DNA of 64,000 nt from a virus: positions 59,807 to 123,806 of the IMG/VR virus record IMGVR_UViG_3300019487_000022. One strand, written 5' to 3'. The notes under the pieces were generated by a model. The model did not search any database and had not been told where the DNA came from. It was given only the letters and a program-made list of their open reading frames with translations. The position numbers and the translations under genes were made by a program. How positions within the stretch are numbered: the first letter of the stretch is position 1; the number at the start of each line of letters is the position of its first letter. Positions 28,786-59,028 of this stretch are shown piece by piece.

Positions 28786-29178
28786 ATGAAAGAACCAAAG
28801 TTAGTTATTGTTATGAGATCTGACCTTAATATGAGCAAAGGAAAAATTGCTGCTCAAGCTGGTCATGCGGCGGTAGCTTTTCTTTTAGCTAAAGTTGCAA
28901 ATAAGAAAAACTTAGAATATACTACAGTTTCTTTTAAAGAAGTAGAACAAAAATGGATGCAAGGTATTCAAAAGAAAGTATGTTTAGATGTTTCTTCAGA
29001 ACAAGAACTATTATCTATATATGAGCATGCAAAAACAGGAGGATTAGAAGCCCATTTAATTACTGATTTAGGATTGACCGAATTCAATAGTGTAGCAACA
29101 ATGACTTGCGTAGGTATAGGTCCAGACACTGAAGAAAAAATCAATCTCGTTACAGGAAGCCTCAAACTCTTTAAATAA
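28786..29178 (+). CDS. Peptidyl-tRNA hydrolase 2
   Basis: 130 residues, complete Pth2 domain: KLVIVMRSDLNMSKGKIAAQ, AGHAAVAFLL, IQKKVCLDVSSEQELLSIYE, GLEAHLITDLGLTEFNSV then ATMTCVGIGPDTEEKINLV. Pth2 releases peptidyl-tRNAs that fall off ribosomes. It is usual in archaea and eukaryotes and present in some phages. Placed between pncB and nadE with minimal spacing, so translated with them. A second, possibly recoded Pth2 homologue lies at 34526-34864. Confidence 0.92.
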   Translation: MKEPKLVIVMRSDLNMSKGKIAAQAGHAAVAFLLAKVANKKNLEYTTVSFKEVEQKWMQGIQKKVCLDVSSEQELLSIYEHAKTGGLEAHLITDLGLTEFNSVATMTCVGIGPDTEEKINLVTGSLKLFK

Positions 29179-34525: not shown

Positions 34526-34864
34526 TTATTTCTCCTTAATTTTGAATAATTGAAAACTTTTAAGCGCAATACGAGCATCACCCTGCAACGGCGCAGTAGC
34601 AATAGCTGTAATTTCATTGTTTCGATCTGGCTCTCGCCAAATCTTAAAGGGTATATCGGCAGCTTTAAGTTTATTTATTGCCGTTTCGAGTTGAGATAGG
34701 CTATCAACGGAGCATAAACAGAGATGAGGATGCTCTTGATAATTGTGATATTCTAATGTTGATTCTATTGCCGCATGACAGGCTTGCACGGCAATCTGAG
34801 GAATGGATAGATCGTTGCGTGTGATAATATAAACATACTGATTTTGATTGTTAACTCACTTCAT
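34526..34864 (-). pseudogene. Pth2-like gene with in-frame UGA at codon 3 (recoded or broken)
   Basis: From ATG 34862-34864 (AAGGAG six bases upstream) the frame reads ATG AAG TGA GTT and then stays open for 109 codons: VYIITRNDLSIPQIAVQACH, DIPFKIWREPDRNNEITAIA, APLQGDARIALKSFQLFKIK. That is a compact Pth2-like domain, including the conserved EPD and TA-x-A blocks. Without reading the UGA, the first in-frame ATG is 25 codons in and would remove the first strand and Q-A-x-H-A core. A Trp-like tRNA with anticodon UCA is encoded 250 nt upstream in the same transcript direction. Either UGA is read as Trp, or the gene is freshly broken by a TGG to TGA change. Confidence 0.6.
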
Positions 34865-34919
34865 TTTAATCTCCTTGTAGTATAAGTTAGTTACTTCTAA
34901 AATTTTAATCGACCTTTTG

Positions 34920-35111
34920 TCATCTTACAATATGATATCCAGCTATTCCCAGGGGCCAAAAAATTACTTCTAAGATAACACATACCCAAAATAAATACAT
35001 TATTTTAAGTATTTTAAAATCTGTATAAAACAAACGACTGATTTTATTTGCCCACCATATACCTATTCCGAGGTATAATAAAGAAGCAAAAATAATTAAC
35101 ATTGTTAGCAT
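34920..35111 (-). CDS. Small two-segment membrane protein
   Basis: 63 residues with two hydrophobic helices (MLTMLIIFASLLYLGIGIWW and MYLFWVCVILEVIFWPLGIA) joined by a short basic loop. Lies between the UGA-reading tRNA and the Pth2-like gene, same strand. No family recognised. Confidence 0.55.
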   Translation of the reverse strand: MLTMLIIFASLLYLGIGIWWANKISRLFYTDFKILKIMYLFWVCVILEVIFWPLGIAGYHIVR

Positions 35112-35115
35112 AAAT

Positions 35116-35188
35116 GCGTCACGGTGGGACTTGAACCCACAACCTGAAGATTTGAAATCCTCCGCTCTGCCAATTGAGCTACGTGAGC
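35116..35188 (-). tRNA. Trp-like suppressor tRNA, anticodon UCA (reads UGA)
   Basis: Cloverleaf: D-arm GCTC AATTGGCA GAGC, anticodon arm GAGGA-TTTCAAA-TCTTC with anticodon TCA at 34-36 and U33 present, 5-nt variable loop, T-arm GTGGG TTCAAGT CCCAC. D-arm and variable region closely resemble tRNA-Trp, whose normal anticodon CCA would become UCA by one change. The acceptor stem pairs over 7 bp only if one C on the 3' strand is bulged (GC-TCACG with CGTGA-c-GC), so function is likely but not certain. Confidence 0.75.
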
Positions 35189-45598: not shown

Positions 45599-46168
45599 AT
45601 GAGAATAATAGGATTTCTGTATCTTCTATTGTTGTTAATTGTAGGCTGTACTGATAATAAACATATCAACTATAATTGTAATTATAGTAACGCAAAAGCT
45701 GCATTAAATCCAAAAGAAAAATCATTAGCTCTTGGTACTTTATCATCTTCTACTACAAAACCGTCTTCTTCTGACAAATACATCATATGTTTAAATAAAA
45801 ATCTAGAATTTGCTAAAGAAATGGCATGGAGAGATGCTAAAACGCGATTTACTAATCCAGTTGTAGTTTTAGCTCATGGGCGGGAATATCTAGGCAGTTG
45901 GTTTATTTTTCCAGATAAGGGAGATCCTTTTAGAGTAGATAGCTATGCTTGGATATTAAACGAAACATATATAGATTGTGATATTGTTTTATTTGTGTGC
46001 AATCCATCTGGATTAACGATATATGTACCACGAGTATGGTATTATAGAGGAAACGTTTGGGTAGTACCGGATACAGAACCTCCTGCAAAATATCGAGAGA
46101 TGAAAAGAAATTTTATGGGTAATGGCTCTATTTGGGAAGCTATTACACAAAATACATGGGCTGAATAA
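45599..46168 (+). CDS. Lipoprotein on the opposite strand
   Basis: 189 residues. Signal LLLLLIVGC gives a lipobox with acylated Cys at 17. The mature part has FAKEMAWRDAKTRFTNPVVV, DSYAWILNETYIDCDIVLFV and GLTIYVPRVWYYRGNVWVVP. No family recognised. It is a lone plus-strand gene without a Shine-Dalgarno; a 10-bp AT hairpin (45571-45597) ends one base before the ATG. Exposed phage lipoproteins often block superinfection, which is only a suggestion here. Confidence 0.65.
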   Translation: MRIIGFLYLLLLLIVGCTDNKHINYNCNYSNAKAALNPKEKSLALGTLSSSTTKPSSSDKYIICLNKNLEFAKEMAWRDAKTRFTNPVVVLAHGREYLGSWFIFPDKGDPFRVDSYAWILNETYIDCDIVLFVCNPSGLTIYVPRVWYYRGNVWVVPDTEPPAKYREMKRNFMGNGSIWEAITQNTWAE

Positions 46169-46257
46169 GGAAGATAGTGGAGTCGAACCACAGGCACTAA
46201 TCAGTGACACCATCCCGCTTCGAACGGGCGACCATTACCACAATGGCTATATCTTCC
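46169..46257 (-). tRNA. tRNA-Ser, anticodon CGA
   Basis: GGAAGAT/ATCTTCC acceptor, anticodon loop TTCGAAG, long variable arm, T-arm with TTCGACT. One mismatch at the base of the anticodon stem. Reads UCG. Confidence 0.85.
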
Positions 46258-46450
46258 GCTGAGAAAATTCTTCGTAATATCCAGCTAGCTCATCTTCAAC
46301 AATTACTTTCATTTTGTGAAAACGATAACCATATTGTTTTTGTTCTTTACAAACAGCTTTTACCTCCGATCTATTCTCTTTGCAAACTGGTTTTCCATCA
46401 CATCCACAAATAAAGCGTTTTGCAGTTAAATCTACTACATAATATTTCAT
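46247..46450 (-). CDS. Small Cys-containing protein
   Basis: 67 residues. It has RFICGCDGKPVCKENRSEVK then AVCKEQKQYGYRFHKMK. Its last 11 nt overlap the 5' end of the tRNA-Ser(CGA) gene. Stop-to-start spacing with the upstream gene is 2 nt. No family recognised. Confidence 0.6.
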   Translation of the reverse strand: MKYYVVDLTAKRFICGCDGKPVCKENRSEVKAVCKEQKQYGYRFHKMKVIVEDELAGYYEEFSQRKI

Positions 46451-46452
46451 TG

Positions 46453-47331
46453 CTAATCTTCTTCTTCATCTGTGATTCTAGGAAGTTCCCCTAATGAAAA
46501 TTCTCTAATAAGATGTTCAAACGGTTCTTCTCCCTCTACATTCCACATTTTAATTAAAAAGTTATGTTCAGCAACTGTGAGAATCATGGCGGGATCTATT
46601 ACACTATTAGGAATAGATATTTTTCTTGAATAAATGGTTTTCGTTTGAGGTATCCACATTACCCTAATTCTGCCATCTTCTTCATTTTGCCATGTATCGT
46701 TGGCTTCCAATGAAAAGATATCTGCTAGTTTGGGTATCTTGTAACATTCTGACATAACTTCAAAATATCGCTGTTTTGCTAAAGCAAAACCTTTTAACAA
46801 ATCGTCTGTTAATGTTCCAGGCATATCCGCATAAAAATAAATACATTCCCTGTAGCCATAAGGAATTCTTCCTAATTCAGCGCTAAATGCAGTATTTGAG
46901 AAATCAATGTTTGCAACTGCAAAAAGGTTACTATCTAAATATCTAATTTTTCTATTGTTTTCTTTGATTATCTTTTTGGTAAATGGATATCTTTGATCAG
47001 AAATAATTTCAGTTTCTACATCATGTCTCCTTGTCCATTGATTTGCATTTATTGCAATTTTAAAATAGCGAGGGAAATCAAATAATTTGTTATCAAGTAT
47101 TGGAAAATACCTGCTTAATTTTGCAGCTACGTATTTTTTCCCAAGTGCTAACAAAACCTTTGATTTGCGTTGCCGTAAAATCTCATATCGTCTCCCTGCC
47201 CTATCGTATTTAATATTTTCTGCTCTTTCTATTGCCTCAAACAAACTATCTTCATTTTTTAATTTAGAAGTATGCTTGTAAATAATCTGAGGAAATTTTT
47301 CAATTGATTCATCAATAGTCATTACAGACAT
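46453..47331 (-). CDS. Unknown protein
   Basis: 292 residues. Conserved-looking segments are RRYEILRQRKSKVLLALGKK, FDFPRYFKIAINANQWTRRH, IPYGYRECIYFYADMPGTLT and DGRIRVMWIPQTKTIYSRKI. A folded enzyme-like protein without a motif I can name. Ends acidic (RITDEEED). Confidence 0.7.
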   Translation of the reverse strand: MSVMTIDESIEKFPQIIYKHTSKLKNEDSLFEAIERAENIKYDRAGRRYEILRQRKSKVLLALGKKYVAAKLSRYFPILDNKLFDFPRYFKIAINANQWTRRHDVETEIISDQRYPFTKKIIKENNRKIRYLDSNLFAVANIDFSNTAFSAELGRIPYGYRECIYFYADMPGTLTDDLLKGFALAKQRYFEVMSECYKIPKLADIFSLEANDTWQNEEDGRIRVMWIPQTKTIYSRKISIPNSVIDPAMILTVAEHNFLIKMWNVEGEEPFEHLIREFSLGELPRITDEEED

Positions 47332-47369
47332 GATTGCGTCTCCTTTATTTTGAATTTTGTCAAAATAAG

Positions 47370-47603
47370 TTAATCGTCATAAGGTTCCAGTTGAATATCC
47401 GCAGTATCTTCCTCTAATTGTTTTTGAAAATTATCATATTGTTCTTGTGATGGTGGTTTACATGGAGGATTACATTGACAAGGAAAAACTGTATAATGAC
47501 CACAGCGTTTATTTAAACGCATAGCTTTTAATACAGCATTATACATGTCTTTATCGCCTTCTGCTGCTTTATACATAGCACAAGCTAATATTGGAAAACT
47601 CAT
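47370..47603 (-). CDS. Small Cys/His protein
   Basis: 77 residues with MRLNKRCGHYTVFPCQCNPP then CKPPSQEQY, a possible metal-binding knot. Start overlaps the preceding stop as ATGA. No family recognised. Confidence 0.6.
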   Translation of the reverse strand: MSFPILACAMYKAAEGDKDMYNAVLKAMRLNKRCGHYTVFPCQCNPPCKPPSQEQYDNFQKQLEEDTADIQLEPYDD

Positions 47604-47995
47604 TCTTGATTCTCTTTCTCTTCCCTTTTCTTTTGAAGTTTCATTTTTTGTTCAAATGTTAGTTGTTCTTCTGCTTCAGGACTAGGCTCAAAACCATTAG
47701 CAATAAATAAATCTTCTATTGTGTCTGCATCTTCATAATCTTCATCGGTTATAACCATCCACTCGCTGCCGCAACTAGTGTCAAAAACATCCTCTATGAT
47801 TTGTTTTTCTACTACATTACCCAGATTATCGTGAATATGCACATAACCCATAGTTATATCATTAGCACATACTTGGCAAATAAAGCCAGTAATGTAGTGT
47901 ATTGCTTCTTTTCTGGATTCAAAACCACTGTGATTATGATTCCCATTTACAAGATGAACAGCAGTAAATCCCATTGTATTTTTCCTATGTATCAT
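47600..47995 (-). CDS. Unknown protein
   Basis: 131 residues. It has TAVHLVNGNHNHSGFESRKE then AIHYITGFICQVCANDITMG (His- and Cys-containing), and an acidic Glu/Lys tail. Overlaps the upstream gene by 11 nt. No family recognised. Confidence 0.6.
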   Translation of the reverse strand: MIHRKNTMGFTAVHLVNGNHNHSGFESRKEAIHYITGFICQVCANDITMGYVHIHDNLGNVVEKQIIEDVFDTSCGSEWMVITDEDYEDADTIEDLFIANGFEPSPEAEEQLTFEQKMKLQKKREEKENQE

Positions 47996-48224
47996 TGAGA
48001 TTTGATTCCCAACGATTTAATTCTGATTGCTCATAACAGAAAAAACCATGATTCAAACTATAAATAATTACCCAACCATCTTTTTCTTCTATAAAAGCAT
48101 TACTTATGAAAAAGAAGGTTTTATCTTTATGACTAATGACAGCATAATTTTTAAATCTATCATCTGTTGACTTTAGCGTTTCAGCAATAGTATCTGCATA
48201 CTGCTCTATTTCGTCCAGATTCAT
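47985..48224 (-). CDS. Unknown small protein
   Basis: 79 residues with NYAVISHKDKTFFFISNAFI and GWVIIYSLNHGFFCYEQSEL, beta-rich. Terminates with TAG. No family recognised. Confidence 0.55.
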   Translation of the reverse strand: MNLDEIEQYADTIAETLKSTDDRFKNYAVISHKDKTFFFISNAFIEEKDGWVIIYSLNHGFFCYEQSELNRWESNLNDT

Positions 48225-48226
48225 AT

Positions 48227-48499
48227 CTATTCCATTTTATTCTTTTCATCCAAAACATCTTGTTTAAGCTGTTTTATTTTAGCACAGATATTTGCCATTG
48301 TTTCGCTTTTTTCTTCGTGAGATAAATTTTTTCTATTTGAAAATACTATTTTATCTCTGTTTATTTCGTCTATTCGTGTTTGGTATTTTTTGAAAATGAT
48401 TGTGTGACGTTTAAGATTTTCGCAATATGCGTTCCATTCTTCGTGCATATTGTTATATTCGACTACATATCTTCTGATACCTCCATCTCTATTCTCCAT
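48227..48499 (-). CDS. Unknown small charged protein
   Basis: 90 residues from ATG 48497-48499; a longer frame would read through the adjacent tRNA gene. Helical and charged (YCENLKRHTIIFKKYQTRID). Terminates with TAG. Next is the tRNA-Leu gene, 4 nt upstream of its start. Confidence 0.55.
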   Translation of the reverse strand: MENRDGGIRRYVVEYNNMHEEWNAYCENLKRHTIIFKKYQTRIDEINRDKIVFSNRKNLSHEEKSETMANICAKIKQLKQDVLDEKNKME

Positions 48500-48503
48500 T
48501 AAT

Positions 48504-48583
48504 GCGGGCGACAGGAATCGAACCTGCACACCTTATGGTACTGGCTTCTAAGACCAGCGCGGCTGCCGTTACGCCACGCCCGC
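48504..48583 (-). tRNA. tRNA-Leu, anticodon UAG (copy 1)
   Basis: GCGGGCG/CGCCCGC acceptor, anticodon arm CTGGT-CTTAGAA-GCCAG, variable arm with ACC/GGT stem, T-loop TTCGATT. Reads CUA (and likely other CUN). Confidence 0.88.
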
Positions 48584-48598
48584 AAATATCTTTAAAGT

Positions 48599-48727
48599 GG
48601 GACAGGCGGGATTCGAACCCTAACAGTATTGCTACTGTAGCTGACAGTTCATGTGTTCGCGACGGGACATGCTGTCAACGCATCTGTCGATTAGAGGTCT
48701 CTATCGGCTTACTTAGCCCACTGTCCC
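48599..48727 (-). tRNA. 129-nt tRNA-like gene with expanded core
   Basis: A perfect 7-bp acceptor (GGGACAG/CTGTCCC), a T-arm with TTCGAAT and a short D-arm (GGCT..AGCC) bracket a core about 55 nt longer than any normal tRNA. The core holds a hairpin closed by ATGC/GCAT with loop GTTGACA (anticodon would be UGA, but base 37 is C) and a strong ACAGTA-GCAA-TACTGT hairpin where a variable arm should be. It lies 3 nt from one tRNA-Leu gene and 15 nt from the other. Could be an odd class II tRNA, a tRNA with an insertion, or a tRNA mimic. Confidence 0.5.
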
Positions 48728-48730
48728 AAT

Positions 48731-48804
48731 ACGCCCGAGGGGATTTGAACCCCTAAGCATCTCCTTCTAAGGGAGATAGGTTTGCCAATTTCCGTCACAG
48801 GCGT
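48731..48804 (-). tRNA. tRNA-Leu-like, anticodon UAG (copy 2, short variable loop)
   Basis: ACGCCTG/CGGGCGT acceptor, Leu-like D-arm (GGAAATTGGCAAACC), anticodon arm TCTCC-CTTAGAA-GGAGA, T-loop TTCAAAT. The variable loop is only about 5 nt, short for tRNA-Leu. A TCTCCAG-type promoter lies just upstream (48848-48854). Confidence 0.8.
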
Positions 48805-48828
48805 GTAAAAAATATGGCTATTTTCGAT

Positions 48829-48854
48829 AATAAAGAGAATTTAACTTCTGGAGA
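48829..48854 (-). promoter_or_regulatory. TCTCCAG-type promoter for tRNA cluster
   Basis: TCTCCAG (minus, 48848-48854), 13 nt, TTTATTATCG, ending about 25 nt before the first tRNA-Leu. Confidence 0.45.
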
Positions 48855-48856
48855 TA

Positions 48857-49060
48857 TTACTTACCCCTGGAGATTTCCAGGGAAACATTTGAACCATCTT
48901 CAATAGAAATAATTGTTTGATTACCCTGTCTACTAACTATAACCCCCTGAGTTTCATATATCTTTTGAGGTTTATTTGCTTCAATTTTTAATTTAGATCC
49001 GATAGCAAAACCAAAAAATAGTGCTAATACTAACAGAATCAGGTATATGATCTTAAACAT
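48857..49060 (-). CDS. Small single-span membrane protein
   Basis: 67 residues. Hydrophobic anchor at 4-22 (IIYLILLVLALFFGFAIG), then a small beta region (GVIVSRQGNQTIISIEDGSN). Its last codons overlap a CCCTGGA/TTCCAGGG inverted repeat that may act in termination. No family recognised. Confidence 0.6.
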   Translation of the reverse strand: MFKIIYLILLVLALFFGFAIGSKLKIEANKPQKIYETQGVIVSRQGNQTIISIEDGSNVSLEISRGK

Positions 49061-49068
49061 ATAATAGT

Positions 49069-49344
49069 TTATTCATCAAAAGAAACATCATGACTGTCAT
49101 CCTTCCAATGAACTGTATTATATTTGGCCCCACAATTTCTGCAGGTAACATCCTCTGGTATTGTCATCCATTCTCCTGATTTAACATCTTGTGGATCTAC
49201 ACCAAATTGTTCTGCATAATCCATCTTCTCTTCAGGAGACATTTCAACAATAATGCCTTGTTCAAAATTATCCGTATAACATTTATCACAAGTCCAAATA
49301 TGTGCCGGTCTTAATTCTATATAAGGTAATTTATCGTTATCCAT
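49069..49344 (-). CDS. Zinc-finger protein
   Basis: 91 residues with two Cys pairs (WTCDKCYTDN and VTCRNCGAKYN) separated by an acidic segment, a probable zinc ribbon. No named family. Confidence 0.65.
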   Translation of the reverse strand: MDNDKLPYIELRPAHIWTCDKCYTDNFEQGIIVEMSPEEKMDYAEQFGVDPQDVKSGEWMTIPEDVTCRNCGAKYNTVHWKDDSHDVSFDE

Positions 49345-49345
49345 A

Positions 49346-49576
49346 TTATTTAATATACTGTTTATATGCTTTAATTGCCTCTACGGTTAACAATTTTCTT
49401 ATTTCTTCCTCTTCTCTTATATCTATATACTTCCCTAAAGGATATAATGCAGAATCTACAGAACAATCAATTGCAGTCTTTTCACTAGCATTGGAATAAT
49501 ATTTTATTGTTGTTTCAACTGCTTCATGTACATGTAAAATAGCAACATCTAACAATGCTTTATCGATCTTAATCAT
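49346..49576 (-). CDS. Unknown helical protein
   Basis: 76 residues, helical (LLDVAILHVHEAVETTIKYY, EEEIRKLLTVEAIKAYKQYI). One base between its stop and the next gene. No family recognised. Confidence 0.6.
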   Translation of the reverse strand: MIKIDKALLDVAILHVHEAVETTIKYYSNASEKTAIDCSVDSALYPLGKYIDIREEEEIRKLLTVEAIKAYKQYIK

Positions 49577-49577
49577 A

Positions 49578-49859
49578 TTACTTAGGGTTTCTTATTTTTA
49601 ATTTCTTCCAAATAAAATCAGGTACTATACAACGCACTTTTTCATCATTATCAATATCCGTTAATGCTTTGCATTGACAACATTTAAAACTTACATAAGT
49701 TATGGTAGACCCATCCATGAGACATCTGGTAGTCTTAAAAAGATCTTTCTCATCAACTAAGAGAATTGCGCCACAGCCTTTTCTGTTATTACCAAACCCA
49801 GTACATTTAAACTTCTTCGACCAAATTTGTGTGGGTTCTCCCTTTTTAATAACTTTCAT
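49578..49859 (-). CDS. Small Cys-rich, probably zinc-binding protein
   Basis: 93 residues with Cys at KKFKCTGFG, KGCGAILLVDE, TRCLMDG and SFKCCQCKAL, resembling phage zinc ribbons. Starts in an ATGA overlap with the upstream gene. Confidence 0.65.
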   Translation of the reverse strand: MKVIKKGEPTQIWSKKFKCTGFGNNRKGCGAILLVDEKDLFKTTRCLMDGSTITYVSFKCCQCKALTDIDNDEKVRCIVPDFIWKKLKIRNPK

Positions 49860-50431
49860 TTTATAGCCTTATAGTTAGCTAAACTACATACTGCTTCATT
49901 CCCTCTTCCCGATCCAATATCGGTTATTATCATTAAATTTCCATTTGGTAATTTAACTGTTACTTGCCCTTCATCTTGAACCGCAGTTAATTTCAAACCT
50001 CTCCATCTGACATGCCCTATAGTTTGTTTATTTTCTTCAACTGCTGTAAATGTTAATCCGCCATCTGGTTCCACAGCCGCTAAATAGTTCTCTCCAGTTT
50101 TTACTTTTGATAAATTTAGAGCAAGATCAAACAACCCATCTTTAGTAATTGCGGTAAGTCTTCTGGTAGGGTCTACATTGTTCGTGAGCCACTTGAGGGA
50201 TTTAACTGTTCCAATTTTACAAGTAGGAATTTGACAGCCCTTTTTTATAAATGATTGTAACCATCTAGATTTCGAGATAAAAGCAGCTTCGTCAAAGCAC
50301 ATTTTATCTCTCAACTCTTGATAACCTTGAGATATCAATAGTATGTTTTCTTGTATATCTTCATCTGCTAAATAAGAATAGGTGTTAAAAGTTAATACTC
50401 TACTTGCATAAATGGCTTGTTCGTCTGTCAT
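49856..50431 (-). CDS. Unknown protein
   Basis: 191 residues. It has NILLISQGYQELRDKMCFDE, FISKSRWLQSFIKKGCQIPT and GNLMIITDIGSGRGNEAVCS. C-terminal half beta-rich. No family recognised. Terminates with TGA. Confidence 0.65.
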   Translation of the reverse strand: MTDEQAIYASRVLTFNTYSYLADEDIQENILLISQGYQELRDKMCFDEAAFISKSRWLQSFIKKGCQIPTCKIGTVKSLKWLTNNVDPTRRLTAITKDGLFDLALNLSKVKTGENYLAAVEPDGGLTFTAVEENKQTIGHVRWRGLKLTAVQDEGQVTVKLPNGNLMIITDIGSGRGNEAVCSLANYKAIK

Positions 50432-50443
50432 TAGTTAATCCTT

Positions 50444-50668
50444 TTAAGCTTCACCGACTACTTCTTTATCATCTGGAGGAATATAATTCGTTACCCACCA
50501 TACCGGCTCATAAATTTCGATTGCCTGATCGCCAGCTATTCCTAATGTCTTACTTACTTTCTTTGCTATTCCTAATCCAGGTTGACCAGCTATGTCAATT
50601 CTAAACCATGCTCCAATAGGTAAATCACTCATATGTTTAAGCACTAGGTTTTCTGCTAAGGGATACAC
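50444..50668 (-). CDS. Unknown small protein, GTG start
   Basis: 74 residues from GTG at 50668, chosen because GAGG lies 7 nt upstream and a longer frame overlaps the preceding gene. It has LPIGAWFRIDIAGQPGLGIA and IEIYEPVWWVTNYIPPDDKE. No family recognised. Confidence 0.55.
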   Translation of the reverse strand: MYPLAENLVLKHMSDLPIGAWFRIDIAGQPGLGIAKKVSKTLGIAGDQAIEIYEPVWWVTNYIPPDDKEVVGEA

Positions 50669-50690
50669 TGAATCACCTCTTTTTATTAAA

Positions 50691-50930
50691 TTAAGCAATG
50701 TAAGCCATATCATTTTTAATCTTTATATCATTAGCATACCCTTCAATTACCGCTCTTGGTTGTCTCTTTTTCGATTTACTACAACCATTTAATTTATGAA
50801 AAACAATGTGCTTAACAAAATGACATTTTCCTTTAAAATGCACTGACCAAATTACCTCTCCCAATTGCAATGTTTTTGGTTTATTAAAGTGAAAGAAAAA
50901 CTTAAATTTGCCAGGTGTTTTAAGAGGCAT
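50691..50930 (-). CDS. Unknown small basic protein
   Basis: 79 residues, basic and aromatic (GKFKFFFHFNKPKTLQLGEV, KCHFVKHIVFHKLNGCSKSK). No family recognised. Confidence 0.55.
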   Translation of the reverse strand: MPLKTPGKFKFFFHFNKPKTLQLGEVIWSVHFKGKCHFVKHIVFHKLNGCSKSKKRQPRAVIEGYANDIKIKNDMAYIA

Positions 50931-50933
50931 ATC

Positions 50934-51263
50934 TTAGTCCATCCAATCGGGATTCTCTTCTTCCCACTTCTTTTCTTCTAATAAGACACGATGTTCATCT
51001 GGAGTTAATGTTTTAATAAATGAAATGTTAGTATATGCCTTTTCACCAATCTCTTCTTTTAATGCTGTCCAAATAATATCCTGTCGATTTGAAATAGGAA
51101 TACCATTGAAACCTTTCCATATCACAATACCATTAATTCTAGGTAGACATTGCAACTCCACAGAAGCTTCTGGAAAAGTTTCTTTTATTATTCTTAAAGT
51201 AACTTCAAATAATTGATTACGTTCGATGATTTCTTTATCTCGCGGCATTAATCCACAACCCAA
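50934..51263 (-). CDS. Unknown protein
   Basis: 109 residues with TLRIIKETFPEASVELQCLP, GIVIWKGFNGIPISNRQDII and a C-terminal helix. Starts within the end of the upstream gene. No family recognised. Confidence 0.6.
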   Translation of the reverse strand: MGCGLMPRDKEIIERNQLFEVTLRIIKETFPEASVELQCLPRINGIVIWKGFNGIPISNRQDIIWTALKEEIGEKAYTNISFIKTLTPDEHRVLLEEKKWEEENPDWMD

Positions 51264-51613
51264 TCTAACGAAGCTAAAGCAAGCATTTCAGTTTTTGTCA
51301 TTTTTCTATAAATACGACTATTTAATCTAAAATTTTGATTATCACTTAAAATAGCTAATCTTGGAATATCAGTTTCTAAATCTAACCTATCCTTATCATC
51401 TAATTCAACATATGCACATTTATTCTTGTTTAATCTAATAATTTTATCAAATGCTGGAAACTCTGGAGTGCTTGGGAATCGTATCACTAAGTAAGAAAAA
51501 CTATTACCCACATATCCTTCTAAAACAAACACCTCTACAGATGGAGAAAAGAACGGATTATGAGAGTATAAAAGCTTTAATTTTATTGAAGAAGTAGGTA
51601 ATATACACAACAT
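51248..51613 (-). CDS. Unknown protein
   Basis: 121 residues, beta-rich (SFSYLVIRFPSTPEFPAFDK, LNKNKCAYVELDDKDRLDLE). C-terminus KMTKTEMLALASLDWVVD. No family recognised. Confidence 0.6.
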   Translation of the reverse strand: MLCILPTSSIKLKLLYSHNPFFSPSVEVFVLEGYVGNSFSYLVIRFPSTPEFPAFDKIIRLNKNKCAYVELDDKDRLDLETDIPRLAILSDNQNFRLNSRIYRKMTKTEMLALASLDWVVD

Positions 51614-51642
51614 CTATCTTATAATCGACAGGCATTGTTAAT

Positions 51643-51843
51643 TTATATTCTCACCCATTTTGCAGGTTTTCTAGACGATTCTCTACGTCGATTTATATCT
51701 TTTAGTTTAGGGCATATGTTATATATAATCTCGCCCAATATAGATATATCTAACATTTGTCCTTTACTTTCTTTAAAAGCTTTATCTATCGCTGCATCAA
51801 AACGTTGTGAAAATTTCTTTCTTTTTATATTATTCTTTGCCAT
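51643..51843 (-). CDS. Small basic protein
   Basis: 66 residues with KRKKFSQRFDAAIDKAFKES, GEIIYNICPKLKDINRRRES and a basic C-terminus. Lies immediately downstream of the RNA ligase gene (10-nt gap), so possibly its partner. No family recognised. Confidence 0.55.
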   Translation of the reverse strand: MAKNNIKRKKFSQRFDAAIDKAFKESKGQMLDISILGEIIYNICPKLKDINRRRESSRKPAKWVRI

Positions 51844-51852
51844 AATAGTTTA

Positions 51853-52875
51853 TCAACTAAAATCATTATCATCTGGCGCATGTTTCGGATTAATTAACTT
51901 AAGAGCCAAACGAAACTTTGTTGTTGAATAACGAGGAATTAGTGGAGTTACAACAACACCTTCTTTTATATGTAACGAATTGCCACTGATATTTTCTTTT
52001 CCTTCTCTTAAAGGACGAATTTTATTGATATCAAATGGACCTTCATATAAAACAGGCACCCAAAGCTTCCGTAAATCTTCAGGAATTTCTGAAAATGGTA
52101 AAGTCCTACCTTCAACATCAATCCTGAAAATAAATATAGTTTTCTTTTTTAAACCGTAGTTGTATCCTTTATGAAAAGGAACGACCTCACCAAATGCTTG
52201 AGTATTTACACTAGGAAAATGTTTTTCCAAAAGATCAAAGAGTCCAGAATCATTAGCTACAATACGATACGCAACATCTGCTTCATCAGCAAAAAATTGA
52301 TCGTTATCAAGTAATCCTTTTGATGTAACTAACCTTTTACCATCTGCTAGTTTGACATACACACCTTGAGTACCATGAATTTTCTCTGTAACTTGTACAT
52401 GTTCACCCTCTACAAATTCATTAGGATAAATATTGTAAGTTTCAACTTCGTGCTTATGAATATCTGTACCAATTGTTTCAAGAGAAAATACCTCTCCAAC
52501 CAATTCATCTGGAATTGGAGCTATATATCGCGTTATCCCTAACCTAGCAGAAATATCTTCACCTAATGGAACATCCACTAATGCAGGAATATCATCAAGA
52601 ATAATTCCCTGAGTCAGCTCTTTTTGCATAACCAGGGCTTTAACACGATTCTTTTCAGGACCAACTAAGTATTTACGGCGATCCCCTTCATCAGCAATTG
52701 CATCTGGTAAAACGGATTTTTCAGGAACAAAAATTACAATGCTCTCGTTCTTGAAAATTCCTTTACCAACGACCACCTGATATTGCCCCACTTTACCTAG
52801 TTCCAATCTCAAAACCTCTGGATTAGGGTGAGGAAATAACTGTATCTTTTCTCTTGTAACTTTCCACTGTGCCAT
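51853..52875 (-). CDS. RNA ligase, DRB0094/Rnl5-like
   Basis: 340 residues. N-terminal OB-like region (1-130) followed by a nucleotidyltransferase domain, the Rnl5 order. Motif I is VTEKIHGTQG with the adenylated Lys at K165; motif III is likely QAFGEVVPF; motif IV KEGVVVTP; motif V LALKLINPKH. Seals RNA nicks via ligase-AMP. With the 2H phosphoesterase at 13148 and the tRNA array it could repair host or phage tRNAs cut by defence nucleases. All core motifs appear intact. Confidence 0.88.
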   Translation of the reverse strand: MAQWKVTREKIQLFPHPNPEVLRLELGKVGQYQVVVGKGIFKNESIVIFVPEKSVLPDAIADEGDRRKYLVGPEKNRVKALVMQKELTQGIILDDIPALVDVPLGEDISARLGITRYIAPIPDELVGEVFSLETIGTDIHKHEVETYNIYPNEFVEGEHVQVTEKIHGTQGVYVKLADGKRLVTSKGLLDNDQFFADEADVAYRIVANDSGLFDLLEKHFPSVNTQAFGEVVPFHKGYNYGLKKKTIFIFRIDVEGRTLPFSEIPEDLRKLWVPVLYEGPFDINKIRPLREGKENISGNSLHIKEGVVVTPLIPRYSTTKFRLALKLINPKHAPDDNDFS

Positions 52876-52902
52876 AAATACTCCAAAATATCGTCTTTGC
52901 TT

Positions 52903-53415
52903 CTATTTTAACATTGTTTGCATTACAGGATTGCAATACGCACGTCTCCAAAAATCTAATGTTTCTTCTCCAACCTGAGAGACATTCGCTCTTGCAACTA
53001 TTTCAGCTTCGCTATAAAAAACAAAAGATTCTTTTCTCAATCCAAATAATCTTAAACTTCTAATGATTCGCGTAATACGTAATAAATTATGATTGCGAAA
53101 AGCACACCAAGATTGTTTATCTACATTCCAATGATTACCTATTCCATAAAATAAACGAAATCTCTCAAGACAACTTAAAATATTAGTTGTGGCTTTATCT
53201 GAACTTTGAAGAATTTTTATATCTTCTTCTGTTAAAACAGGCCCATTAAAATTATGCCGTGAAGTCTCATGCAAAGGGAATAGCCATTGAATCCAAGTAT
53301 GACTTTTTTCAAGATCCCAATCAGAACTGTTAATCATCTGTTTTAAAGTTATGCCTTCATCATTTGGTAAATCATTAATATAGAAGTCTAAAATTTTTGA
53401 TGTATATTTAGTCAT
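52903..53415 (-). CDS. OGFr-like domain protein
   Basis: 170 residues. WDLEKSHTWIQWLFPLHETS then RHNFNGPVLTEEDIKILQSS matches the opioid-growth-factor-receptor-type domain (W-x-LE-x-x-H-x-(Y/W)-IQWLFP), which occurs in some bacterial and viral proteins. The C-terminal half is helical (RFRLFYGIGNHWNVDKQSWC). Molecular function of this domain is unknown. Lies directly upstream of the RNA ligase gene. Confidence 0.75.
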   Translation of the reverse strand: MTKYTSKILDFYINDLPNDEGITLKQMINSSDWDLEKSHTWIQWLFPLHETSRHNFNGPVLTEEDIKILQSSDKATTNILSCLERFRLFYGIGNHWNVDKQSWCAFRNHNLLRITRIIRSLRLFGLRKESFVFYSEAEIVARANVSQVGEETLDFWRRAYCNPVMQTMLK

Positions 53416-53756
53416 ACAATACCTGCCATTTTCTTGCGATGTCTTTTACACCATGATGAATTTAAAACCATGTTTGATGCATCTCTAGCACAAGAAGGTT
53501 GTTCAAAAGCGACTTTAAAACTAGTTAAAAATAACCTATGGCGTTCTTGTTCATCTTCCCATGACTTTTTATGTTCTGGACAAAGAGCTAAAGAACCCCA
53601 ACCCGGTCTTGCATTTGCAATCCATTCTGCACCAAAAATACCACAAACATTGCAACAGAGATTCCAGCCGTTTAATTCCTTTTCTGCTGCTTCTGCCATT
53701 TGTAAAGCAATTTTATGGGCTTCTGGATTTATTTCTTCTGGTTTCTTAAAAGGCAT
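53412..53756 (-). CDS. Unknown Cys/His protein
   Basis: 114 residues. WNLCCNVCGIFGAEWIANAR with LALCPEHKKSWEDEQERHRL could bind one metal. Helical C-terminal part. Stop overlaps the next start as ATGA. A TCTCCTG variant promoter lies about 60 nt upstream. Confidence 0.6.
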   Translation of the reverse strand: MPFKKPEEINPEAHKIALQMAEAAEKELNGWNLCCNVCGIFGAEWIANARPGWGSLALCPEHKKSWEDEQERHRLFLTSFKVAFEQPSCARDASNMVLNSSWCKRHRKKMAGIV

Positions 53757-53828
53757 TTTTCACTTTCTTAAACGTAAATAAGCCTTAATGAGATATGAAA
53801 GGGGAATTTTCTTCAGGAGATGAGAAGT

Positions 53829-53912
53829 GTCGTTGAGAGGATTCGAACCTCCAAGGTCACAATGACCACATGGGTCTGAACCATGCGCTTTTACCAATTT
53901 AGCCACAACGAC
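53829..53912 (-). tRNA. tRNA-Leu, anticodon CAG
   Basis: GT-rich acceptor GTCGTTG/CAACGAC, anticodon arm CATGG-TTCAGAC-CCATG, long variable arm GGTC..GACC, T-loop TTCGAAT. Reads CUG. Confidence 0.9.
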
Positions 53913-53915
53913 ATT

Positions 53916-54086
53916 TTATATTTTTCCACACAAGTGATAAATTAATGTTGTAAATGACATGCCTATTACAAATAAATATATGCAAAGAAGAATCAAAAAT
54001 GCTTGCCTTTGTTTCCAACGAACTTTTGCAATAGCATAATCCGTTGTTTCTTTCCAATATTTTTTCTGCCAATCATCTGTATTCAT
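53916..54086 (-). CDS. 56-residue single-span membrane protein
   Basis: ATG at 54084-54086 shares its A with the stop of the upstream gene (TAATG). Starts MNTDDWQKKYWKETTDYAIA, a variant of the KKYWKE motif seen in two virion-module proteins, then a basic segment and a membrane helix (FLILLCIYLFVIGMSFTTLI). No named family. Confidence 0.6.
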   Translation of the reverse strand: MNTDDWQKKYWKETTDYAIAKVRWKQRQAFLILLCIYLFVIGMSFTTLIYHLCGKI

Positions 54087-54346
54087 TATTTTTTCTTTCT
54101 TTTCTTTTTTAAATCTTCTTCTCTTTTCTTCATTGCTGCTATCTTTATTTTAGCTATATAATGTCCGTTCCCAGCCAGATCTTTTGCTTCTTTTGTCATT
54201 GCTGCTACATAATGTTCATGAGCAGTTTTTAATGCTAATTGACCTTCTGGTGTTTCAAACATTCTACGAGATATTTCTATTCTTTCTTGTATGTCTTTTT
54301 CTAGTTCTTCCTTAGTCATCTCTTTATATTTAGGTTTCTTTTTCAT
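54086..54346 (-). CDS. Small basic helical protein
   Basis: 86 residues from ATG 54344-54346; a longer frame would read through the tRNA gene. Very charged (MKKKPKYKEMTKEELEKDIQ ... MKKREEDLKKKRKKK). No family recognised. Confidence 0.55.
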   Translation of the reverse strand: MKKKPKYKEMTKEELEKDIQERIEISRRMFETPEGQLALKTAHEHYVAAMTKEAKDLAGNGHYIAKIKIAAMKKREEDLKKKRKKK

Positions 54347-54350
54347 AAGT

Positions 54351-54431
54351 GTCGATGACAGGAGTCGAACCTGCACGATGTTACTCAACAGTTTTTGAAA
54401 CTGCCGCGGCTGCCAATTCCGCCACATCGAC
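54351..54431 (-). tRNA. tRNA-Leu, anticodon CAA
   Basis: GTCGATG/CATCGAC acceptor, anticodon arm GCAGT-TTCAAAA-ACTGT, variable arm, T-loop TTCGACT. Reads UUG. Confidence 0.88.
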
Positions 54432-54439
54432 ATGTATTA

Positions 54440-54661
54440 CTACCAATCATTTATCAAATGTTCATTGATAAATGATATCAGCCATTTTCTACCACGTTCT
54501 TCCGCACCTACAGAAATTCTTAAAACTTTATGACCTACATATCCAGCAATTCCTGTTAGCTCAAATTCTTTTTGAGTAGTTTCATCATAGTAACGTTTAC
54601 CCATTTTATTTAAAATTTGAAAATCATTTGGATGAATATATTCTACATCTTCTATAGCCAT
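54440..54661 (-). CDS. Unknown small protein
   Basis: 73 residues from ATG 54659-54661 (reading further upstream enters the tRNA). It has FELTGIAGYVGHKVLRISVG, ending in a helix. No family recognised. Confidence 0.55.
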   Translation of the reverse strand: MAIEDVEYIHPNDFQILNKMGKRYYDETTQKEFELTGIAGYVGHKVLRISVGAEERGRKWLISFINEHLINDW

Positions 54662-54687
54662 AAATATCTTTCTTTTTAAATTACAAT

Positions 54688-54777
54688 GCGGAAGGTGGGA
54701 TTCGAACCCACAACCGTTCAAGGACGGATTCCCAATATTTTAAGTATTGGAGGTAAGCCAGTTCCCGTCACTCCCGC
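54688..54777 (-). tRNA. tRNA-Leu, anticodon UAA
   Basis: GCGGGAG/CTTCCGC acceptor (one G-U), anticodon arm CAATA-CTTAAAA-TATTG, long variable arm, T-loop TTCGAAT. Reads UUA. Confidence 0.9.
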
Positions 54778-54860
54778 GATATGAAGTGAAGATCATTAGA
54801 CCCAACCCAGAGCAGCGTCATAGGCGTCATTCTAACATAAATTCACTTCAATAATATAAT

Positions 54861-55115
54861 TTAACTTTGCATATCATCAAACATTTGACATTCAGATACA
54901 TGACATAAATTGTATCGAATTCCATTTATTTCTTTTGTCTCAACGTTAGGCCATTCTCTGCAATCAGGATCTCCACAATCTAGCATGCACCATTCAGGAC
55001 CATCTCTGCCCTTATTAGGTCCAATGATTTGTACTATATGTTTATTTGAATTTTCTATAAAACCACTGGCTCTTGAGAGCCAAACCCAATCTCCACTTTT
55101 ACGTCTTTTGCTCAT
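54861..55115 (-). CDS. Unknown Cys/Trp protein
   Basis: 84 residues from ATG 55113-55115 (GGAG six bases upstream). It has KSGDWVWLSRASGFIENSNK, EWCMLDCGDPDCREWPNVE and NLCHVSECQM, five Cys and possibly metal. The 83-nt gap to the next tRNA holds an 8-bp inverted repeat (GAAGTGAA/TTCACTTC) and no gene. Confidence 0.55.
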   Translation of the reverse strand: MSKRRKSGDWVWLSRASGFIENSNKHIVQIIGPNKGRDGPEWCMLDCGDPDCREWPNVETKEINGIRYNLCHVSECQMFDDMQS

Positions 55116-55133
55116 CTTTAGCTCCAAATAAAT

Positions 55134-55213
55134 GCGGTTGAGAGGATTCGAACCTCCACGGTGTTACCCGCTACCACCTCAAGGTAGTGCGTCTGCCTTT
55201 TCGCCACAACCGC
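55134..55213 (-). tRNA. tRNA-Leu, anticodon GAG
   Basis: GCGGTTG/CAACCGC acceptor, anticodon arm CTACC-TTGAGGT-GGTAG, variable arm CGG..CCG, T-loop TTCGAAT. Reads CUC/CUU. Confidence 0.9.
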
Positions 55214-55229
55214 GATTCTTCTTACAAGC

Positions 55230-55317
55230 GGAAGGTGTCAGAGTTGAACTGACAATACGTCTTTCAACGTATAATTGTTTTCAAGACAATCGGACTTGCC
55301 AATGTACCAAACCTTCC
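55230..55317 (-). tRNA. tRNA-Ser, anticodon UGA (copy 1)
   Basis: GGAAGGT/ACCTTCC acceptor, anticodon arm ATTGT-CTTGAAA-ACAAT, long variable arm ATACGT..ACGTAT, T-loop TTCAACT. Reads UCA and probably other UCN. Confidence 0.9.
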
Positions 55318-55328
55318 ATATAAACAGC

Positions 55329-55417
55329 GGTGGGAGTCAGAGTCGAACTGACACACCATCTTTTCGACGATGAACACCTTTCCAAGATGTTTGACTTACC
55401 AATGTGCAAATCCCACC
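55329..55417 (-). tRNA. tRNA-Ser, anticodon GGA
   Basis: GGTGGGA/TCCCACC acceptor, anticodon arm ACATC-TTGGAAA-GGTGT (one G-U), long variable arm, T-loop TTCGACT. Reads UCC/UCU. A TCTCCTG promoter variant lies upstream at 55446-55452. Confidence 0.9.
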
Positions 55418-55455
55418 ATATAAATAATATATCGACAACTTCATTCAGGAGACAT

Positions 55456-55540
55456 GGATGATGGAGGAGTTGAACCACTTGCCTGTCCGCCCGATTTAAT
55501 TAGGCAACCGGGTTACAGCCGGTCATCGGGAACATCATCC
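55456..55540 (-). tRNA. tRNA-Tyr, anticodon GUA (copy 1)
   Basis: GGATGAT/ATCATCC acceptor, anticodon arm ACCGG-CTGTAAC-CCGGT, long variable arm TGCC..GGCA. The T-stem is imperfect and the D-arm short. Reads UAC/UAU. Confidence 0.82.
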
Positions 55541-55544
55541 GTAA

Positions 55545-55617
55545 GGCTATGTAGGGAGTCGAACCCTAAATGTCGCGAGATTTGCAGTCAAGCCGCTTGC
55601 CACTTGCATACATAACC
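55545..55617 (-). tRNA. tRNA-Cys, anticodon GCA (imperfect anticodon stem)
   Basis: GGTTATG/CATAGCC acceptor (one T-G), anticodon loop CTGCAAA, short variable loop, T-loop TTCGACT. The anticodon stem CTTGA/TCTCG has two mismatches, so it may be weak or decayed. Confidence 0.65.
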
Positions 55618-55653
55618 ATAGGCATCTATTCAGTTTTCAAAGAACTCACAAGA

Positions 55654-55735
55654 GACTGGGGTGAGATTCGAACTCACGTTGTCTTTCGACAGTCGCTTTG
55701 CAGGCGACCCCATTTGTCCACTCTGGCACCCAGTC
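55654..55735 (-). tRNA. Class II tRNA with Cys anticodon GCA
   Basis: GACTGGG/CCCAGTC acceptor, Ser-like D-arm (CCAGAGTGG..TGG), anticodon arm GTCGC-CTGCAAA-GCGAC and a long variable arm GTC-GAAA-GAC, T-loop TTCGAAT. Normal tRNA-Cys has a short variable loop, so this is a Ser/Leu-type body carrying a Cys anticodon. Charging identity is uncertain. Confidence 0.8.
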
Positions 55736-55744
55736 AACTATTAA

Positions 55745-55761
55745 CGGAGAGGTAATGGAAT
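55745..55761 (+). repeat. Left direct repeat of the nuclease insertion (tRNA 3' end copy)
   Basis: CGGAGAGGTAATGGAAT, 16 of 17 bases identical to 56409-56425, which is the 3' acceptor and T-arm start of the tRNA-Ser(UGA) copy 2 gene. The two copies flank the plus-strand nuclease gene. Confidence 0.65.
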
Positions 55762-55807
55762 AGCTCTTGTTTTAAAGAAAACCTTTCCGTTTATTCGAAT
55801 ATCTATT

Positions 55808-56419
55808 ATGAAAACATCGTGTTCAGACTGCAATAATACCTTTGATAAAAAATCTTATGAAATTAAACGCACTAAATATCATTTTTGTTCTCTTAAATGT
55901 TGGTCAAATTTTCAAAATAAGAAAAAACCAACTAAAATTAAAGTAACATGTGCAACTTGTGGTTTTAACTTTTTTAAAATTCCAGCAGAGATCTCTAAAA
56001 CTGGTAATTCTTTTTGTAACCGTTCTTGCGCTGTTGTGTTTAATAACCGTAAAAAACGTAAAAGCAGACGTTCTAAAGCAGAAAAAATGCTTTTTGATTT
56101 ATTAAATAAATCTTTTCCTAACCTTCCTATTCTTGCAAACGACAAATCATTATTAGATGGTTTAGAAATTGACATAGCTTTTCCTAGTCTTAAACTTGGC
56201 ATAGAATGGAATGGTATAGTCCATTTTAAACCAATTTTTGGTACACAAAAATTTCTAAAAATTCAACACAACGATATCAGAAAACAAAAAATAGCGTTTG
56301 AAAAAGGCATTCACTTAATTGTTGTGCCAGATCTTGTTTCTACTAAATCCTATGTTGAGGACGCTGCAATGAGCATCAAACAGATCATAACATCTCTGCT
56401 TGATAAACCGGAGAGGTAA
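55808..56419 (+). CDS. Zinc-finger/Vsr-like (DUF559-type) homing-type endonuclease
   Basis: 203 residues, on the opposite strand to the surrounding tRNA genes. N-terminal half has two zinc fingers (CSDCNNTFDKK ... HFCSLKCWSNF and CATCGFNFFKI ... SFCNRSCAVVF), then a basic stretch. The C-terminal half is a PD-(D/E)XK/Vsr-like nuclease: SKAEKMLFDLLNKSFP, LEIDIAFPSLKLGIEWNGIV (D and E of the core), HNDIRKQKIAFEKGIHLIVV. Its last codons (KPER then TAA) are made from the duplicated tRNA acceptor sequence. This architecture matches free-standing EDxHD/Vsr-type homing endonucleases. Confidence 0.78.
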   Translation: MKTSCSDCNNTFDKKSYEIKRTKYHFCSLKCWSNFQNKKKPTKIKVTCATCGFNFFKIPAEISKTGNSFCNRSCAVVFNNRKKRKSRRSKAEKMLFDLLNKSFPNLPILANDKSLLDGLEIDIAFPSLKLGIEWNGIVHFKPIFGTQKFLKIQHNDIRKQKIAFEKGIHLIVVPDLVSTKSYVEDAAMSIKQIITSLLDKPER

Positions 56420-56425
56420 TAGAAT
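56409..56425 (+). repeat. Right direct repeat of the nuclease insertion
   Basis: CGGAGAGGTAATAGAAT, overlapping the nuclease stop codon and the 3' part of the tRNA-Ser(UGA) gene. One mismatch with the left copy at 55745-55761. Confidence 0.65.
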
Positions 56426-56493
56426 CGAACTATCAACGTTTTACCGTCAGCCGAGTGTTCAAAACTCGTTGGGAACCGTTTCCCGCTACCCTC
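56410..56493 (-). tRNA. tRNA-Ser, anticodon UGA (copy 2, insertion target)
   Basis: Acceptor GGAGGGT with CCTCTCC (one G-U, one mismatch next to the D-arm), anticodon arm CGAGT-TTTGAAC-ACTCG, long variable arm, T-loop TTCGATT. Its 3' end is shared with the end of the inserted nuclease gene. Confidence 0.85.
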
Positions 56494-56526
56494 CAAAATA
56501 TTAACTTTTTACAACTAACTTCAAGC

Positions 56527-56613
56527 GGAGAGCGAGAGAATCGAACTCTCACCGGGGTTAACCGGACCAATTTAGCAAACTGGCGAGGCGAAGCCAATAT
56601 CCAACTGCTCTCC
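56527..56613 (-). tRNA. tRNA-Ser, anticodon GCU
   Basis: GGAGAGC/GCTCTCC acceptor, anticodon arm CCAGT-TTGCTAA-ATTGG (one G-U), variable arm CCGG..CCGG, T-loop TTCGATT. Reads AGC/AGU. Confidence 0.9.
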
Positions 56614-56617
56614 GTTT

Positions 56618-56887
56618 TTAAATATCAGTACGCAACTTCATCTTATCATAATCATGAGACATTCTGATAATCAATGATTCTCGCAAAGCAGGTAAAGTTG
56701 CATTTACAACCTTCCAACCTGTTTCTATTCTTCCTGTTTCAGGATCCTCTAATTTATCCAATATGGCACCTGGAATAGCAATCGATTGACGTATCCAAGA
56801 CACCATTCTAGCTATACCATTGTCCATAGGTTTTTCTAATTCGCATTGAACATACATTGTTTCGTTATGTTTATTATGCTTTGCCAT
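56618..56887 (-). CDS. Unknown small protein
   Basis: 89 residues with GIARMVSWIRQSIAIPGAIL, GWKVVNATLPALRESLIIRM. Overlaps the upstream gene by 14 nt. No family recognised. Confidence 0.6.
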   Translation of the reverse strand: MAKHNKHNETMYVQCELEKPMDNGIARMVSWIRQSIAIPGAILDKLEDPETGRIETGWKVVNATLPALRESLIIRMSHDYDKMKLRTDI

Positions 56888-57143
56888 ATAATTCTTTCTG
56901 TTCAGCTACTTGCCAAGTTACTTTTGTTTCGCTGCCTTTCTTATATGTATCCCAATCAATCTTGCCGGTTGCGATGATTACTCCATCAACAATCTTTACG
57001 ATTCTCCATTCAAAACCAGGTTCAATCCAATTTAGTTGTACAAGACCTTTTGTTTGTTCTACTTCTGATTCTAACGCTTTCCCTTCATTCTTAAACTCTT
57101 CGCCACTATGGTTTCGTACCTGAATCTGAAATAAATTACTCAT
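56874..57143 (-). CDS. Unknown small protein
   Basis: 89 residues from ATG 57141-57143; reading further upstream enters the tRNA-Tyr. Beta-rich (LVQLNWIEPGFEWRIVKIVD, GSETKVTWQVAEQKELYGKA). No family recognised. Confidence 0.6.
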   Translation of the reverse strand: MSNLFQIQVRNHSGEEFKNEGKALESEVEQTKGLVQLNWIEPGFEWRIVKIVDGVIIATGKIDWDTYKKGSETKVTWQVAEQKELYGKA

Positions 57144-57147
57144 AAGT

Positions 57148-57230
57148 GCGCCGGACAGGATTCGAACCTGTGAACCCATTAGGGATCTGTTTTACAGACA
57201 GACTGCTTTAAGCCACTTGCATACCGACGC
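57148..57230 (-). tRNA. tRNA-Tyr, anticodon GUA (copy 2)
   Basis: GCGTCGG/CCGGCGC acceptor (one G-U), anticodon arm TCTGT-CTGTAAA-ACAGA, variable arm CCC..GGG, T-loop TTCGAAT. Confidence 0.9.
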
Positions 57231-57234
57231 AAAT

Positions 57235-57411: not shown

Positions 57412-57498
57412 AGGACAAAAATGAAAATTGAGCAACCATTCTAAAACCGAACCTTTGATAAACCATCCTCCGTTTCATCATTTCTCCATATAAAATAA

Positions 57499-57528: not shown

Positions 57529-57539
57529 CAGGAAACTGT

Positions 57540-57891: not shown

Positions 57892-57894
57892 TAT

Positions 57895-58973: not shown

Positions 58974-58977
58974 AAAA

Positions 58978-59009: not shown

Positions 59010-59028
59010 GGTTTAAATCCTTTTATAT

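Follow-up and report, generated by a model that had tools for sequence, protein, structure and literature searches.

A phage gene whose reading frame is closed by a stop codon almost at its start is very likely under a translational switch gated by a neighbouring suppressor tRNA, a reading drawn from sequence alone, without expression, proteomic or aminoacylation data. The gene, here called Pth2-like, lies in a window of 64,000 nucleotides (the whole stretch analysed, positions 59,807 to 123,806 of IMG/VR virus record IMGVR_UViG_3300019487_000022, a 123,806-base virus contig with a terminase gene). The suppressor tRNA, a 63-codon open reading frame (ORF) and the Pth2-like gene follow one another on the minus strand, and we refer to the start, few codons and in-frame stop as the lock. 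The features of the window locus are as follows.

35116–35188, minus strand: suppressor tRNA gene, anticodon UCA, which reads UGA (ARAGORN, Rfam RF00005 and fold)
34920–35111, minus strand: 63-codon ORF between the tRNA and the Pth2-like gene (no Pfam family)
34871–34876, minus strand: Shine-Dalgarno sequence AAGGAG, 6 nt ahead of the ATG (sequence)
34856–34864, minus strand: lock ATG AAG TGA, made up of a start, a single codon and an in-frame stop; the next base is a purine, G (sequence)
34526–34864, minus strand: Pth2-like gene, 112 codons long with the TGA read as sense (Pfam PTH2, AlphaFold2 and Foldseek)
28795–29175, plus strand: canonical second Pth2 with a normal start, outside the switch, serving as a contrast (116 bits)

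This architecture is seen in the sequence itself. The Pth2-like gene consists of ATG (34864–34862), AAG, TGA (34858–34856), 109 open codons and TAA, with no ATG, GTG or TTG between the TGA and the Pth2 domain, and the tRNA lies 251 nt upstream of the ATG on the identical strand. ARAGORN called a single tRNA gene, which matched the Rfam tRNA model with 55 bits (E = 3e-11). An initial annotation, made without database searches, had proposed the UCA tRNA, the ATG AAG TGA start with AAGGAG ahead and 109 open codons behind, and a spacing of about 250 nt in the same direction, all of which held. Its description of the tRNA as Trp-like was not established, the acceptor stem closing only with a bulged C (UGC-UCACG / CGUGA-C-GCA) and the discriminator being A; CCA is not encoded. 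Trp as the inserted residue is unsupported (discriminator A; position variable), and TGG is not evident as the ancestral state, the nearest relatives having TAG. No terminator-like site was found between the tRNA and the Pth2-like gene, and the intervening ORF probably shares a transcript with both. Elsewhere in the window, 15 more tRNA genes lie on the minus strand (46168–62610), a Leu/Ser-rich set with two Leu-UAG and two Cys.

The standard code, claimed initially for the rest of the window, held for the 123.8-kb contig: reading TGA as sense created no long recoded genes, and a search of the full contig for other genes with in-frame TGA found none besides the Pth2-like gene. A lock scan over the entire contig (Shine-Dalgarno sequence, ATG, no more than five codons, a stop, then an open stretch of 50 codons or more that has no further start) returned 34526–34864 alone, so that the Pth2-like gene is the sole visible target of the UCA tRNA. 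The claim of a single target gene thus holds for this contig, in which neither gene X nor a locked leader was found; relatives add locked RGPP/KPP leaders before gene X, as described below.

The part of the window gene after the TGA exceeded the gathering cut-off of PTH2 (PF01981; 32.2 versus 23 bits, E = 1.3e-7), although several of its relatives score under it. An AlphaFold2 model of the protein, built with an alignment of relatives, reached a pLDDT of 91.9, and its leading Foldseek matches were all Pth2 (TM 0.69–0.76; 2zv3, 3erj, 1xty, 1wn2 and 1q7s), so the Pth2-like identity proposed initially held for domain and fold. Canonical Pth2 and the phage protein have the fold and the core motif R-x-D-L...Q..HA in common, but the phage protein is shorter and the lysine-bearing GKGK loop is deleted in alignments. 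The lysine of this loop belongs to the active-site region of Pth2; because it is missing, classical hydrolase activity is doubtful, and we use the name ‘Pth2-like’ and not ‘peptidyl-tRNA hydrolase’. The canonical Pth2 of the window, which the initial annotation missed, adjoins an NAD synthetase-like gene, giving two Pth2-type proteins in one phage. A bacterial genome search for the Pth2-like family returned five MAG contigs only, and the family is therefore essentially phage-borne.

Five relatives carry fusions of an N-terminal domain with the Pth2-like domain (XacN1, RAS14 and loci L019, L026 and L047), with the lock at the fused start. The N-terminal protein that is fused to the Pth2-like domain, or lies in frame directly before it, has an HD-like motif (HDxGK or HDILEDT), as in L009:3443–4300 (XacN1), L008:3452–4309 (RAS14) and L007:4422–4985. 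Two additional TAG-locked Pth2-like 5′ ends (L062:2098 and L096:4246) enter an endonuclease-like frame after GYQ and look interrupted by an intron or homing gene.

The pattern is larger than the initial annotation could see and recurs in many large phages. Our sample comprised 169 non-redundant homologous loci from viral contig scans and phage records; the family was sampled by similarity with related phages included, and lock counts are not independent events. By script, 120 of the 169 loci have a stop at codon 2–10 behind a good start, most commonly at codon 3, the stop being TAG in 113, TGA in 4 and TAA in 3. Where a suppressor tRNA lay within 5 kb, its anticodon fitted the lock in every script-called case (86/86), and still did so once five locks called by eye were added (91/91), a fit matched by none of 100,000 label shuffles. 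In the tree, TAG/CUA relatives surround the four TGA genes as well as the one TAA gene that has a UUA tRNA, from which we conclude that stop and anticodon have switched together, more than once. This comparison lends strong support to the initial idea that a dedicated suppressor recodes selectively: TAG goes with CUA, TGA with UCA and TAA with UUA.

Position and strand of the tRNAs point the same way. All 144 suppressor tRNAs are co-directional with the gene, and 56 of them lie within 500 nt, a distance that would hold about a tenth if the tRNAs were scattered evenly across 5 kb in either direction; the baseline here is this internal distribution of distance and strand, together with 12 canonical-Pth2 loci, not random loci. 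The tRNAs are very diverse in sequence and have many different acceptor stems, as if decoding, and not the amino acid, were what is conserved, although this is no more than a possibility. The closest IMG/VR relative of the window gene (L007, 48% identity) reads MA-TAG; a further in-frame TAG takes the place of a Q codon in the window, a CUA tRNA lies 0.57 kb upstream, and the neighbouring genes are standard-coded. Cultured phages with the lock include GAP32 (MAQ-TAG), XbC2 (MAH-TAG), ME3 (MT-TAG) and Arash (ML-TAG), in which a CUA tRNA lies 0.4–3.4 kb from the lock; the annotations of these genes are truncated.

Purifying selection acts on the codons behind the stop, with a median dN/dS of 0.12 and a maximum of 0.36 over 71 pairs, and in 107 of the 120 script-called loci no start codon occurs between lock and domain. 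In 114/120 loci a purine (A or G) directly follows the lock, compared with a purine after the nearest upstream stop in 29/49 open genes; suppressor context effects are such that a purine following the stop favours suppression. A comparably strict lock rule was met by 81 of the 169 homologues versus only 37 of 3957 control frames (0.9%), and the 12 loci of canonical Pth2 relatives had no lock (0/12) and, in the flanking sequence retrieved, no suppressor tRNA. Opening TAG in the TAG-locked loci gave a mean coding gain, as a fraction of locus length, of 0.085 versus 0.108 for TGA. Individual genomes may be recoded throughout, but the phage set as a whole is not.

Not every locus fits. No suppressor tRNA was found within 5 kb of 34 of 125 locked genes; a whole-record search of eight such records, made with a strict pattern and on partly fragmentary records, found a CUA tRNA elsewhere in three. 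Relatives with an open gene, one form of which the initial annotation had named as a refutation, do exist, mostly in clades without a nearby suppressor or with the lock on a leader. Some open Pth2-like genes adjoin a suppressor tRNA, and several of these, not all, have a lock on a leader. At seven loci (L060, L064, L077, L084, L034, L042 and L052) an open Pth2-like gene without a Pth2 lock has a CUA tRNA nearby; only some open CUA-adjacent loci have a candidate locked leader (MR-TAG-LKPP in L084 and MQA-TAG-ICRPP in L060), and the rest, such as L034 and L042, are unexplained.

The locked leaders, first met in loci that pair an open Pth2-like gene with a nearby suppressor tRNA, constitute a second locked element. 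They consist of ATG, 1–6 codons, a stop and then ..RGPP or ..KPP, and lie 35–160 nt ahead of gene X. Three of them (L161, L149 and L151) combine a start, 1–6 codons, the cognate stop and RGPP, with TAA and a UUA tRNA in L149 and TGA and a UCA tRNA in L151. Positions of the leaders and of examples of gene X are given below.

L186:2780, L080:4438, L129:5296, L196:5299, L206:5299 and L189:5314: locked leaders
L161:4560, L149:4026, L151:3343, L066:5300, L071:5306 and Summit MZ326862:49442: locked leaders
L189:5403–5747, L151:3439–3819 and Summit MZ326862:49530–49865: gene X, adjoining suppressor tRNAs

An RGPP-type motif follows TAG 15 times on the gene strand, each permuted motif occurring at most once per class, and the broader pattern [RK]x?PP follows TAG 36 times on the gene strand versus twice on the other. 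Gene X was found at 39 loci and encodes a small undescribed protein, predicted to be all-helical (pLDDT 89), with the motif LRGxxYxxIE or HELRGSxYRH; it had no fold match in the PDB and no convincing family in Pfam or PHROGs. Of the arrest motifs, RGPP is reported to be the most robust (PMC12992588), and the leader therefore probably stalls the ribosome only after suppression, thereby controlling X; both the stall and the control of X, though likely, are inferred and not observed. The membership test for RAPP/RGPP arrest leaders, a small R-A/G-P-P ORF upstream of a co-directional gene, is met in relatives only. A suppressor-gated arrest leader has, as far as we can tell, probably not been described before.

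Several phages with suppressor tRNAs of unexplained purpose can be re-read in this light. The purpose of the amber suppressor tRNA of Stenotrophomonas phage Summit ‘remains unknown’ (PMC9022506), its authors having sought a target in vain. Summit gene 069 is X and lies directly before the orphan CUA tRNA; 88 nt before X stands AGAAGGAGAAGACC-ATG AAG TAG GTC TAC AAG CCG CCG TAA (MK-TAG-VYKPP-stop). The same locked leader is present in DLP5, and a similar one in DSS3_MAL1. For XacN1, whose authors found no target for its CUA tRNAs (PMC5852040), the fused Pth2-like gene bears the lock. The locked genes are thus possible targets for the orphan amber tRNAs of Summit and XacN1. In Mycobacterium phage IkeLoa (L256, 2593–3672), a locked MF-TAG leader precedes gp150, gp151 is an open Pth2-like gene and a CUA tRNA follows; cluster C mycobacteriophages, which have the IkeLoa layout, are a tractable laboratory system. 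Neither a Pth2-like relative nor a locked target was found within 5 kb of the UCA tRNA of Atu_ph07, and ARAGORN found no suppressor tRNA nearby in NCTB and OLIVR1, both of which have X.

We propose that the Pth2-like mRNA would be engaged at a strong ribosome-binding site but interrupted by a stop behind codon 2 (a UGA in the window gene, in most relatives a UAG), so that ribosomes would release a very short peptide until the suppressor tRNA has been transcribed, matured and charged. The charged phage tRNA would then compete with the release factor, and the Pth2-like protein would be made. Such a circuit would be a coherent feed-forward AND gate requiring both the mRNA and a functional suppressor tRNA of the phage. 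This tRNA would, in relatives, also open the leader ORF up to RGPP or KPP-stop, where the expected stall would control X. Recurrence, stop/anticodon matching and purine context are shown, as are the architecture and the selection described above; readthrough, charging and decoding activity of the tRNA, the leader stall, the timing and the parts played by X and by the Pth2-like protein remain inferences. The initial statement that the protein is made only once the tRNA accumulates is likewise an inference, without expression data. In a bolder and still likely reading, dedicated suppressor tRNAs are trans-acting regulators, each a private key for Pth2-like locks, X-leader locks or both, in a small regulon that keeps its logic while stop, tRNA and locked ORF change. 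The advantage of the gate could be strict silence, early in infection or in its absence, or else a feedback by a peptidyl-tRNA enzyme on the activity of the suppressor; sequence does not tell these apart. Against the switch stand the irregular acceptor stem of the window tRNA and the lack of read data for the window TGA, as well as Atu_ph07 without a target, the window contig in which neither X nor a locked leader was found, the unexplained L034 and L042, and the 34 of 125 locks without a tRNA in reach.

The alternative that survives best is a feedback valve, which shares the gating step with the switch and differs in purpose. The suppressor would serve some other end, and the Pth2-like protein would be made in proportion to limit side effects, perhaps by hydrolysing suppressor-derived or dropped-off peptidyl-tRNA, an activity that is itself inferred. 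This remains possible: the protein has the Pth2 fold and falls in an enzyme family connected with translation, suppressor tRNAs are also seen beside Pth2-like genes that are open, and X is linked to a suppressor without an adjoining Pth2-like gene in Summit. However, no other recoded gene was found in the window contig, leaving no other purpose of the tRNA visible, and the missing lysine of the GKGK loop makes hydrolase activity uncertain.

That a single gene here merely exposes an ordinary genome-wide stop reassignment (code 4 or 15) is very unlikely. The homologue in LR756501 has further in-frame TAGs like those of recoded phages, and L007 and L030 each have a second in-frame TAG, but no other gene of the window contig is opened by reading TGA, the mean gain from opening TAG does not exceed that from TGA, and the annotations of GAP32, ME3, XbC2 and Arash use the standard code. 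A pseudogene, a sequencing error or a non-AUG start after the stop is also very unlikely; the single contig without reads and the irregular acceptor stem speak for such readings, but against them stand the recurrence at codon 2–10 with a matching anticodon, the low dN/dS, the purine after the stop and the lock kept in five gene fusions. A device that senses a lack of release factor, like the prfB frameshift, or a minigene of the lambda bar type that promotes drop-off of peptidyl-tRNA, with the tRNA incidental, would have a Pth-type gene as a sensible output, and a start, 1–3 codons and a stop is indeed the minigene shape known from lambda bar and Pth, but it predicts neither an anticodon that changes with the stop nor complete co-direction and is very unlikely.

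The suppressor-gated switch offers a candidate answer to why standard-code phages carry suppressor tRNAs, and it joins stop-codon suppression to arrest-peptide regulation. It also implies that gene callers systematically truncate or miss locked genes, as with PHROG 34073, a truncated form of the Pth2-like family, and it supplies a search rule for suppressor targets: a ribosome-binding site, a start, few codons, the cognate stop and a purine. In the open-access literature searched, suppressor tRNAs were nowhere connected with Pth2-like genes (subscription papers were mostly outside the scope), and within that scope the switch looks undescribed.

Among known systems, phages using code 15 or code 4 recode stops with suppressor tRNAs (Borges et al. 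2022, cited in PMC10879173; PMC9523058; PMC11210395), and suppression has been suggested to time their late genes. In both cases a phage-encoded suppressor decodes a stop codon as an amino acid (in the locked phages by inference) inside a host that uses the standard code, but recoded phages have many genes with internal stops, whereas here one or two small targets carry the stop at their very start, the genome keeps the standard code, and each of the three stops occurs with its matching anticodon. Of the hallmarks of code 4/15, the window has a tRNA with the matching anticodon and lacks many internal reassigned stops. In selenocysteine and pyrrolysine decoding, too, a dedicated tRNA reads UGA or UAG in particular genes; the tRNAs here are of ordinary shape, and the ‘SeC’ and ‘Pyl’ labels given by ARAGORN reflect the anticodon only. 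RAPP/RGPP arrest leaders (EMBO J 2025, PMC12992588; PMC10987492) share with ours a small RGPP/RAPP ORF upstream of a regulated gene, but in our leaders the motif lies after an early in-frame stop and would be reached only by suppression; a term search of PMC12992588 found no mention of suppressors or phages. The same logic underlies the synthetic leak dampener (Ho et al. 2020, PMC7969014), a coherent feed-forward circuit in E. coli that combines a silent nonsense codon in a regulated gene with a suppressor tRNA and also works with TGA. That circuit is man-made, and we propose the phage switch as its natural counterpart, which, if true, would be a natural version of a circuit known so far only as an engineered one.
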